DNA of 64,000 nucleotides, from NCBI GenBank assembly GCA_016784605.1, contig JADHUI010000011.1, positions 1 to 64,000 of the forward strand, read 5' to 3'. Positions 33,984 to 38,040 of the stretch are shown here, in pieces; position 1 is the first letter of the stretch, and the number at the start of each line of letters is the position of its first letter. Origin of the DNA: Fidelibacterota bacterium (lineage in GTDB: Bacteria; Fidelibacterota; Marinisomatia; Marinisomatales; UBA1611). Below the pieces are notes generated by a model, which was not told the DNA's origin, ran no database searches, and was given only the letters and a program-made list of their open reading frames with translations. Position numbers and translations under genes: made by a program.

Positions 33984-35666
33984 TTATTTCAAATAAATCA
34001 TTTTATTCGTTATTGATCTATTCTCAGTTTGTAATTGAACAAAATATATGCCACTTCCATTTTGGGATGCATTCCATTGAATTTCGTGTTGTCCAGGATT
34101 CAAATTTCCATTCACCAAAACATCAACAACACGCCCGGTTATGTCAAATATACGTAGAGACGTGGCCCCGCTTACAGCGGGATTTCCAACATGCCATGTC
34201 TCTACCAAATCAAACCGGATCGTGGTGATTGGGTTGAATGGATTTGGGTAATTTGACAAAAGATTAAAACCCGAAGGATGAACGAATCCGTCTGTGGATG
34301 ATATAGGAAAGTTTATAGCTCCCCATGTATCGATAATACCATATCCATAACTATTATTAGGATTGGAATGATTATCTGCTGACATTAATAAAGCAGAGCG
34401 AAGTGTCATAGGCGCCCAATCAGGGTGAGCACTTTTGATAACGGCGACTGCGCCACCTACAAGGGGTGTGGCTAAAGATGTTCCATTTAAAGTACGGTAC
34501 CCATTTGTTCCAGGATCGATTCCCCAGGTGGATACACCTCGCGCACAAACTTCCGGTTTAATTCGCCCATCAAATGTCGGGCCATGAGAACTAAAAGTAG
34601 CCAGTACATCATTCACATTGACAGCGCCAACAGCAATCACAGAATCCGCATCGGCAGGTGAAATAATATAATACCATGAAGAATTTCCTTCGTTACCAGC
34701 AGCCGTAACGCATGTCAAACCCAATCCAACGGCAATATCGATCGCATTTGTTGTAACAGCTGTATTACCATCTAAATCTTCATATGTATACCAATCAAGA
34801 TACCCAAGAGATGTGGAAACCACCTGCGCCCCATTTGCTTCTCCCCATTCTAGTCCAGCGACATAATTATCTTCTTCACCTTGGATTTCTTGCTCAACCA
34901 TTTCTGTCTTGGCCAATAAATATTCTGATTTAAATGCAGGCCCAATTAAAGAACCTGGCTGATTGCCAGCCATGACAGACAAAACAGCTGTTCCATGAAA
35001 ATCTTGGTTATAATAATTTTCATCATCTGTTTCATTGCCTGTAAAATTATCATCGTTAATAAAATCATGCTGAGCAATGAGTGTAAGTGAATCAAAAACA
35101 GAATGGCTCAAATCAAATCCAGTATCCATAACTAGAACGCGAATACCTTGCCCATAATATCCATTTTGGTGTGCCATATGAACATTGATTTGTTCAATCT
35201 GATCTTGCGCATATCCATAATCCAATGAATCGTCACGACTCGAATTGGGTTGAGCTACTTCTCCACTTAAACCTAATTTCTCTCTATGGTAAAAATAGAC
35301 AGGTTCTATTTTTTTTACAAAAACAAGATTGTTTAACTGATTTAGCTCAGTAGGGGTTACTAATACGGAAACAGCATTAAGCCACCGACTCTGATGAATA
35401 ATATTAATTCCTAATTCGTTTAGCCGATGCATATAATTTGGAGAAATTTTCTGATCATAGAAAGTAGGCTCTGATGATAGCCCTACCGCTTGACGCTGAT
35501 TTTTTCTCCTCTCATCCAATGCAATAATAGGTGATCCCATTTTATCTTGAAAGTATACCCATGTTTTAATAAGTCCGTTTTCTCTAAAACCGGGAGAAAA
35601 TTGAGATAAATTTATTTCGCCACTGAAACCCACTGAAAGTGTTAAAAGAATTAATATTTTTTTCAT
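33984..35666 (-). CDS. S8 (subtilisin-like) serine protease with T9SS sorting domain containing a palindromic insert
   Basis: 'VLVMDTGFDLSHSVF', 'DFHGTAVLSVMAG', 'LNGTSLATPLVGGAVAVI'; CTD 'NYPNPFNPITTIRFDL…TNKMIYLK'. Confidence 0.9.
   Translation of the reverse strand: MKKILILLTLSVGFSGEINLSQFSPGFRENGLIKTWVYFQDKMGSPIIALDERRKNQRQAVGLSSEPTFYDQKISPNYMHRLNELGINIIHQSRWLNAVSVLVTPTELNQLNNLVFVKKIEPVYFYHREKLGLSGEVAQPNSSRDDSLDYGYAQDQIEQINVHMAHQNGYYGQGIRVLVMDTGFDLSHSVFDSLTLIAQHDFINDDNFTGNETDDENYYNQDFHGTAVLSVMAGNQPGSLIGPAFKSEYLLAKTEMVEQEIQGEEDNYVAGLEWGEANGAQVVSTSLGYLDWYTYEDLDGNTAVTTNAIDIAVGLGLTCVTAAGNEGNSSWYYIISPADADSVIAVGAVNVNDVLATFSSHGPTFDGRIKPEVCARGVSTWGIDPGTNGYRTLNGTSLATPLVGGAVAVIKSAHPDWAPMTLRSALLMSADNHSNPNNSYGYGIIDTWGAINFPISSTDGFVHPSGFNLLSNYPNPFNPITTIRFDLVETWHVGNPAVSGATSLRIFDITGRVVDVLVNGNLNPGQHEIQWNASQNGSGIYFVQLQTENRSITNKMIYLK
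34154..34205. repeat. 52-bp nested palindromic element within the S8 protease CTD coding sequence
   Basis: gtagagacgtggc … gccatgtctctac (12/13 complementary) enclosing cccgc-ttaca-gcggg. Confidence 0.8.
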
Positions 35667-37906
35667 TCTATCTCCATAATCATTGAAACAAGTAATGTTA
35701 GATCAGAAACATCTAATGTTCCATTCCCATCTAAATCTCCTACCGAAAGTTGATAAATTGTTGGATTATCATCCTCCATAATCAAATTTGCTAAAGATAA
35801 TAAATCATAAATATCGATAGACAGATCCGGAACAAGATTCCCAAGTGTTTCGGAACTAAATCCAGAAATACTAAAATTATCAAAATAAAATCCATCTTCT
35901 TCTACATAGTTATCACTGGTTAAAATAAACCGAAAACTTATAGGAGTATGCCCCCCCAATTGATCTAAATCGATGCGTTCTGTAACCCAGTTAACCTGTG
36001 AACCGTCATAACCTGATTCTCCTGCTGGTTGAGCACTTTGTCCATTTCCTAATACTGTATAATCCCCCGATAAACTCACCCAACCATCTTCAACAGTGTA
36101 AGCCTGAAATCGAACAAAATCCCAATTATCTTCTATTGTCCATTTTGCCTGGAAAGTAATAAATGGTCGAACAATATTTGCCAAATTGGGTGTTCCCGTA
36201 AATGTTATTATATTTTCAACACCAGCACTATAATTTCCTTCTGGACTATCTGTAGCGGAATAATTTCCTGTTGCTGATTCGGTAGATAATCCCCATGATT
36301 CTGATGTCCAATGATTCATCCCCGATTCAAATGAATCTAAAAATAGGACCATTGGACTCCCGATAATTTGCCGAATCGTATCTGTCCGAGAAAGACTGTT
36401 ATTATCATTCATAGTAACAATAATCCCGATTTCTGATCCATTGAGCGCTAATTCTGATGCAACTATCTGAGTAGACCAAGGTGAAGATGTTCTTGCTGGA
36501 AGTGACATAATTTCCGCACCATTATTCAAGACAACTGATTGGTCATTGAGCGGTTCGACAGATATTGTTACGGGTCCATTTGAATCTGATAATCCTCGAT
36601 TTTGAATTACAATTGAAATATCAATTGTATCTCCGGGAGCGGGTTGCTCATTTGAAACAAGTGCATCATAAACAATGAAATCAGACCCTGCAACTGAAGC
36701 AAATATTTTATTTGGATGAATTTGATCTTCACATAAAGGAATGACTCGATCCTCGGATGGCCAAAAATAATCTGAGTAGGATCCTACTTCGGGTGTGTAA
36801 GAAATCATTCCTTGATCACCGTAGGTCCAATCAACTGCATCACCATTAACTGTATAACCAATCAATTCATATCCTGTTCCCACGGGATATCCATTATACC
36901 GCGTCATTTCTGCCCCGATTTCACGTAAAGTAGTTAAGTCTGGTTCAGGAGGTAATGAAGCATCGCCAAATGAATGAATTAACACATTTGAATAGGTATG
37001 ATAGTGTAATACATCCTTAAATGGACGACTCGAAATAAAGTCACGAACTGCTTGTGTTTCTGGCTCCGAAAAAGCTTCTGTTCCGCGATAAACGGCACTA
37101 CAAGGATTGGGCGAAGAGCCGGAATTATCGGCTCCCCAATTAAATCCATAATTACGATTTAGGTCAACACCTTGTTCATAATTGTTATTGCAATTTGATG
37201 ATTCTTCTCTTCTATTTTTTCGATGCATCCCACCGCCATTGGGTTCTACTTCTTCATTGTAAACATACCCATCAGGATTTATAACAGGTAAAAACCACAT
37301 TTCACGCTCATTCACCAAAAAAGTTAATTCTGAGTCAGAGCCATAGCTTTCACATAATAATTGTATAAAGTAAAATAAATTCATCATTCCAACCGGCTCT
37401 CTGGCATGAGTTAACCCCGTGTATAATACTTCAGGTTCATCTTCATCTTCATTTGGATTATCTGAAATTTTAACCGCCCATATTTCTCGCCCTTCAATAG
37501 ATAAACCCAATATGTGTCTTTCAGATATGAGATTTGGATATAAATCATGTAATTCATCCATTCGAACGTTTAATTCATCCCATGAATAATTCCCCAATAA
37601 GGAACCAAGTGGAAATTCTCTTTCGGGGCTCGAAATAGATCGATGTTGAAAATACATTGATAAATCCCTTTGTAATACTTCAAATAAAAATCCCGCTTGG
37701 TCTAAATGCTCCATTTGACTATCCGTTACCGTTAAATCAATAAATACATTTTGTTTTATTAATACATGATCTGTTGGAATGCCCATTTTAGTATAGGCAT
37801 TTATTGCATCTTGAGATGCATCAAATACGCGCACTTGATGGTATGACTCTCCCCATACGCATTGTAAAAGCAGGAATGTTAAAAAGATAATTGTTTTTTT
37901 ATTCAT
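35663..37906 (-). CDS. M14 family zinc carboxypeptidase with C-terminal dockerin-like repeat
   Basis: 'GLTHAREPVGMMNLFYF', 'INPDGYVYNEE', 'GVDLNRNYGFNWG', 'TPEVGSYSDYFWP'; C-term 'VGDLDGNGTLDVSDLTLLVSMIM'. Confidence 0.88.
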   Translation of the reverse strand: MNKKTIIFLTFLLLQCVWGESYHQVRVFDASQDAINAYTKMGIPTDHVLIKQNVFIDLTVTDSQMEHLDQAGFLFEVLQRDLSMYFQHRSISSPEREFPLGSLLGNYSWDELNVRMDELHDLYPNLISERHILGLSIEGREIWAVKISDNPNEDEDEPEVLYTGLTHAREPVGMMNLFYFIQLLCESYGSDSELTFLVNEREMWFLPVINPDGYVYNEEVEPNGGGMHRKNRREESSNCNNNYEQGVDLNRNYGFNWGADNSGSSPNPCSAVYRGTEAFSEPETQAVRDFISSRPFKDVLHYHTYSNVLIHSFGDASLPPEPDLTTLREIGAEMTRYNGYPVGTGYELIGYTVNGDAVDWTYGDQGMISYTPEVGSYSDYFWPSEDRVIPLCEDQIHPNKIFASVAGSDFIVYDALVSNEQPAPGDTIDISIVIQNRGLSDSNGPVTISVEPLNDQSVVLNNGAEIMSLPARTSSPWSTQIVASELALNGSEIGIIVTMNDNNSLSRTDTIRQIIGSPMVLFLDSFESGMNHWTSESWGLSTESATGNYSATDSPEGNYSAGVENIITFTGTPNLANIVRPFITFQAKWTIEDNWDFVRFQAYTVEDGWVSLSGDYTVLGNGQSAQPAGESGYDGSQVNWVTERIDLDQLGGHTPISFRFILTSDNYVEEDGFYFDNFSISGFSSETLGNLVPDLSIDIYDLLSLANLIMEDDNPTIYQLSVGDLDGNGTLDVSDLTLLVSMIMEIE

Positions 37907-37988
37907 AGTATGATTTGTGTATTTCTTCTTTGTTAATATAAAAACGAATGTACAGGAAAAATCCCTTATAAAGAATAGTGCTATTTAA

Positions 37989-38022
37989 CAAAAAAGCCTT
38001 CGTAAGAGCGAAGGCTTTTTTG
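37989..38022 (-). terminator. Terminator downstream of citrate synthase
   Basis: aaaaaagccttcg-taagag-cgaaggctttttt. Confidence 0.85.
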
Positions 38023-38040
38023 TTTTATTGACTTTTTAAA

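Follow-up and report, generated by a model that had tools for sequence, protein, structure and literature searches.

A nested palindrome encoding part of a T9SS sorting domain is probably the long form of a common type of GTAG-ended, REP-like palindrome

The window analysed here, a 64,000-nt stretch of contig JADHUI010000011.1 from a Fidelibacterota genome, contains a 52-bp nested palindrome located in frame within the T9SS sorting domain (CTD) of an S8 protease. We consider it probable that this feature is the long nested form of a widespread group of GTAG-ended, REP-like selfish palindromes that are moved by RAYT transposases and persist where their reading frame fits a protein loop. On this reading a hairpin of parasitic DNA has come to supply some of the coding sequence of a protein secretion signal. 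In-frame insertions of REP and of Rickettsia palindromic elements (RPE) are known but scattered; here one hairpin of a secretion address carried by ∼95 proteins of a single genome has been hit repeatedly, by two families, in two orientations and in two phyla. The CTD hairpin is a natural, countable experiment on which properties render a protein site permissive to selfish DNA and on whether the frames of such elements evolve to suit proteins. The relevant features of the window are as follows.

33984–35666, minus strand: gene for an S8 (subtilase) protease with a T9SS CTD, 560 aa (ORF translation and profile matches)
33996–34250, minus strand: T9SS type A sorting domain (CTD), TIGR04183/PF18962 (profiles, model and PDB match)
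34154–34205, minus strand: 52-bp nested palindrome, coding-strand sequence GTAGAGACATGGCATGTTGGAAATCCCGCTGTAAGCGGGGCCACGTCTCTAC
34154–34166, unstranded: outer arm, GTAG-tagged, GTAGAGACGTGGC, the same arm as in the genome's other copies
34193–34205, unstranded: complement of the outer arm, GCCATGTCTCTAC, with one mismatch (pairing and fold)
34166–34189, minus strand: 24-nt internal segment TTGGAAATCCCGCTGTAAGCGGGG, which contains the inner hairpin

The initial annotation placed a nested palindrome in the coding sequence of the protease, and its sequence, coordinates and reading frame were all found to be correct. The arm gtagagacgtggc at 34154–34166 pairs with gccatgtctctac at 34193–34205 at 12 of 13 positions, and between these outer arms, at 34167–34181, lies the inner hairpin cccgc-ttaca-gcggg with its 5-bp stem. 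Removing the 24-nt segment turns the long form into the short one of 28 bp, which is centred on CATG. Folding of the transcript strand, a check proposed at the outset, gave −25.9 kcal/mol compared with −12.5 ± 2.6 kcal/mol for shuffled sequences (z −5.3), and none of 200 shuffles was equally stable. This z-score, the 13 copies in the genome and the copies across the phylum rule out a chance or unique palindrome. A functional RNA family was also rejected, since the window palindrome has no match in Rfam.

In the protease a Peptidase_S8 domain (residues 172–443) is followed by a Por_Secre_tail/TIGR04183 CTD (residues 473–557) that scores above the profile cut-offs (37.5 bits versus 23 for TIGR04183 and 43.6 versus 27 for PF18962). 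An AlphaFold model of the CTD is a seven-strand domain with a mean pLDDT of 83, and the closest PDB structure is the T9SS CTD of mirolase (8qb1). The palindrome encodes V-E-T-W-H-V-G-N-P-A-V-S-G-A-T-S-L and the first base of R505 (V488 to R505). These residues make up the loop and the start of the following strand, between the predicted strands ITTIRFDL and ATSLRIF; in the model they form the loop between strands 20–27 and 41–47 together with the start of the second of these. The loop block has a pLDDT of 55, versus 89–95 in later blocks, and is the sole poorly predicted part besides the N-terminus. The distance from ‘F.L’ to ‘I(Y/F)D’ is 18 residues in the window CTD and ∼9 residues in most of the 95 CTDs extracted from the genome. 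The unusual loop length noticed within the window thus holds at the scale of the genome.

The assembly of the window's genome comprises 2.17 Mb in 46 contigs and is about 89% complete. The genome search suggested by the initial annotation gave further copies: the pattern GTAGAGA-N10..40-TCTCTAC matched 13 palindromes, while the reversed control pattern matched none. They occur in two forms, one of 28 bp (GTAGAGACG-N10-CGTCTCTAC, in many cases centred on CATG) and the other the 52-bp nested form, represented by the window copy, C14:208197, C17:72562 and C44:78. Eleven of the 13 lie inside CTDs, all at one offset, in one frame and at one beta-hairpin. The genome has 98 TIGR04183 matches and CTDs occupy ∼1% of it; independent placement would give this result with a probability of about 1e-20, a value that serves as a guide only because the copies are partly dependent. 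Three more CTDs contain slightly decayed palindromes (C2:33727, C25:45149 and C25:46327), and about 80 of the 95 extracted CTDs are free of them. The two exceptions outside CTDs are a 28-bp copy in carB (C38:15440–15467; L032, L154) and an AT-rich 36-bp GTAGAGA...TCTCTAC at C29:2902–2937, ∼30 nt downstream of the stop codon of a CTD gene. The 24-nt internal segment was not found dispersed by itself in the window's genome. The inner hairpin was rejected as an independent mobile unit, its matches in the genome being long-form copies only and those elsewhere lacking the outer arms.

Similar palindromes are present in many other genomes. Within the phylum the exact 28-bp pattern was found in 37 of 245 genomes, at up to 29 exact copies per genome, and the reversed control in none. 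Matches listed in a scan of GTDB genomes include Bacteroidota, Cyanobacteria, Spirochaetales, Anaerolineae, Zixibacteria, Acidobacteria and others. The resemblance of the GTAGAGACG...CGTCTCTAC flank to repeats of other bacteria, noted in the initial annotation, is now established by these searches. A sister family, GTAGGGG-N14-CCCCTAC, occurs in 26 of the 245 genomes. All family copies start with GTAG and end with CTAC, the two being paired in every copy; CGTC is present only within the right arm and not at the element ends. Across 97 distinct inner variants 401 of 485 stem positions are paired, versus 174.5 with the halves shuffled. Eight further genomes contain the nested form, with different sequences; it shows 21 double-change cells versus 7.0 by shuffle, and the structure fits better than every slid control. 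The similarity between non-coding copies stops in the flanks, where neither a target-site duplication nor a clear target motif was found, only a mild excess of A beside the element. Among 80 classified copies from relatives, whose genomes are incomplete assemblies with sampled loci, CTDs account for 10, RAYT-like genes for 12 and carB for 2.

The occupied CTD hairpin is the same in relatives. Copies of 28 bp lie there at L081, L088, L091, L094, L413, L419 and L429–L432, nested copies of 49 bp with reversed orientation at L312 (G128) and L313 (G130), and copies of the GTAGGGG family at L483, L491 and L492. In two Bacteroidales genomes the palindrome again falls between matching CTD strands (L193, GVLVVETQNFASLPTQTYRITNLMG, and L232); none was found in the sampled other CTDs of these two genomes. 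The window protease was compared with its orthologues: the one from G129 (same genus, 76% identity) has no palindrome and reads VDGMQYISIQ, that from G130 (same genus) has a decayed 28-bp palindrome, and other genera have the native loop. The outcome that would have spoken against the initial annotation, in which other copies are lacking and orthologues have the same residues minus the palindrome, was not observed, and copies are in fact numerous. We found no description of palindromes in T9SS CTDs in the part of the literature covered.

We then have to ask whether one ancient insertion into a CTD was later spread solely by CTD duplication or gene conversion, with the palindrome as a passenger. 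Palindromic CTDs show raised DNA identity across the CTD and none beyond it, and because they are alike along the CTD only, CTD duplication contributes to the spread. When the palindrome sequence is left out of tree building, the palindrome label requires 9 changes on the CTD tree (bootstrap 8–11) compared with a mean of 13.3 for shuffled labels, and none of 500 shuffles was as low. This clustering indicates that CTD descent accounts for some of the spread, and the long-form peptide is common to four CTDs. All three observations agree with a passenger. However, such a history does not readily give 9 label changes, two orientations and two palindrome families at the CTD site, or copies at the matching hairpin of Bacteroidales. 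In addition, where the same residue is compared, arm codons are identical in 87% of cases versus 53% for the flanks, the arms exceeding the flanks in synonymous conservation in 55 of 55 pairs, and codon usage alone predicts 36%. We therefore regard descent from a single insertion as improbable. The presence of both orientations and of two families, the Bacteroidales copies, the conservation of arm codons and the 9 changes lead us to prefer repeated arrival or replacement at the CTD site, which on these sequence comparisons is a better reading than one insertion copied with the domain.

The compensated stems, the arm conservation and the strong RNA fold would also suit a hairpin that is kept for a function of its DNA or RNA, such as that of a recombination site for CTD shuffling or of an mRNA control element. 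We find this very unlikely, given the large majority of CTDs that have no palindrome, the occurrence of the same element between genes, in carB and in RAYT genes, the absence of an Rfam match and the persistence of decayed copies.

A loop in carB is a second recurrent site. In several genera a palindrome, intact or as a decayed remnant, separates KIDPWFL.QIK.L from L..LK..G, with copies in relatives at L084, L351, L355, L365 and L375, the last being of the GTAGGGG type; carB of G129 contains an apparent decayed 52-bp remnant, and that of G082 an apparent copy of the GTAGGGG type. Short copies change the length of this loop by about 0–5 residues.

Both 28 and 52 are 1 modulo 3, so an exact insertion would shift the reading frame. 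The net gain is about +27 nt (∼9 residues) for the 52-bp window copy and about +3 to +6 nt (1–2 residues) for 28-bp CTD copies, while copies of the GTAGGGG family in CTDs encode a different peptide and add about 4 residues. Since the net gain is smaller than the element, native loop codons were lost or a segment was overwritten, and for this reason the insertion event itself is not seen. Overwriting could take the form of local conversion, not transposition, if replication template switching or palindromic single-strand annealing replaced native arm-like codons (E-T...S-L; GAGAC...TCTCTA) with a net length change near zero. The small changes in loop length made by short copies in CTDs and carB fit such a process, as do the ‘SL’ and ‘VE’ positions, which coincide with native residues. 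We nevertheless doubt that conversion is the explanation, because the GTAGGGG family occupies the same site with its own peptide and longer loop, and intergenic copies have no common flanking context.

The search for a RAYT gene gave a divided answer. The genome to which the window belongs, at its level of completeness, yielded no Y1/RAYT transposase. In relatives, 17 RAYT-like genes contain an in-frame palindrome 7–41 residues after PNHxH (the HUH motif), in two frames and from both families (L071, L079, L080, L089, L090, L092, L163, L187, L201, L389, L391, L416, L425, L433, L478, L490 and L496). One such post-HUH loop reads MPNHVHGIIAIGGGFMV-GRDVACNVST-LKHMSN. For the two of these proteins that were scanned, the sole NCBIfam match is the REP-associated tyrosine transposase NF047646, at 61.2 and 57.4 bits, below the cut-off of 80; PF01797 scored 23.3 on one RAYT-like protein versus a cut-off of 23. 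A second palindrome lies near one end of 6 of the 17 genes and on both sides of none. A Y1 transposase is present in 28 of the 37 genomes that contain palindromes, compared with 66 of the remaining 208 (p 6e-7, a comparison that ignores relatedness and genome size). No such palindromes were found near the phylum's 30 best Y1 matches. The palindromes are probably mobilised by RAYT transposases. A palindrome inside a RAYT-like coding sequence, beside the catalytic motif, bears on how REPs and RAYTs stay together.

We propose that the element would be moved as a folded single strand by a RAYT-type (HUH, Y1) transposase that is still encoded in relatives, with single-stranded GTAGAGACGTTGCATGCAACGTCTCTAC as the candidate substrate. 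Intragenic insertions would survive only if a tolerant loop receives them with their stop-free frame (V-E-T-...-S-L) in phase. The beta-hairpin of the T9SS sorting domain is probably such a place, colonised repeatedly by two families and in both orientations. Loss of native loop residues after insertion would keep the loop at a workable length, and the result is presumably neutral for secretion. In the window's genome, where a transposase is no longer found, copies have probably spread also with duplicating or recombining CTDs. It is conceivable, though unlikely, that the GTAG palindromes are themselves adapted to proteins. Their open frame would then be a ready-made beta-turn (V-E-T-x-H-x-T-S-L) that fits both the CTD hairpin and the post-HUH loop of their own transposase, and they would be propagated by that transposase gene and by multiplication of the secretion signal.

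The family resembles the GTAG REP/RAYT systems (PMC3733652, PMC2817692, PMC8266576), which are small palindromes starting with GTAG that have compensated stems, are dispersed, are linked to IS200/IS605-like HUH transposases and occasionally lie in frame in ORFs. Intragenic GTAG and CGTC repeats have been described, including a case at the same site in recB of two Xanthomonas species (PMC3733652), and RAYT genes are flanked by inverted REPs (PMC2817692). The terminal GTAG and the compensated, dispersed palindrome are shared, although the copy number here is modest. In the GTAG REPs, however, the tag is unpaired beside the hairpin, whereas the GTAG of the present 28-bp palindrome forms pairs with CTAC, and strict REP membership fails for this reason. 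The RAYT-like genes here hold a copy inside the ORF, unlike known RAYTs with one REP on each side, and the recurrent host is a secretion-signal domain. As with RPE, a palindrome in frame within a protein gene is translated as an extra segment. In contrast to RPE, whose described families are CGTC-ended or longer, the present elements are GTAG/CTAC-ended and 28 or 48–52 bp long, and they recur at a single position within one domain family, where the short form replaces the loop instead of lengthening it. The element behaves as a REP or RPE would, yet it has no unpaired tag, and its RAYT-like genes are not flanked by two copies. The original proposal of a selfish REP/RPE-like repeat tolerated in the CTD survives in its copies, its family and its RAYT-like carriers; a single event has given way to recurrence, clean addition does not hold, and the strict REP features hold only in part. 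The 28-bp pattern is also present in Nostoc/Calothrix-type genomes, and we take it to resemble the cyanobacterial small dispersed repeats (SDR), short palindromes of such genomes.

Some additional observations were made at the loci analysed. The CTD hairpin of L413:708 (G032) has the peptide NPPSKGD besides its 28-bp palindrome, presumably the product of another palindromic repeat of the CCCCCTT...AAGGGGG type. In the window, a gene for an M14-type carboxypeptidase (35663–37906) adjoins the protease gene and overlaps its start by 4 nt (ATGA); at the end of its product stands a dockerin-like repeat (DLSIDIYDLLSLANLI...VGDLDGNGTLDVSDLTLLVSMI) in place of a T9SS CTD. A perfect 16-bp inverted repeat at 37987–38024 with A/T-rich outer ends (AACAAAAAAGCCTTCG/CGAAGGCTTTTTTGTT) is probably a two-way terminator.
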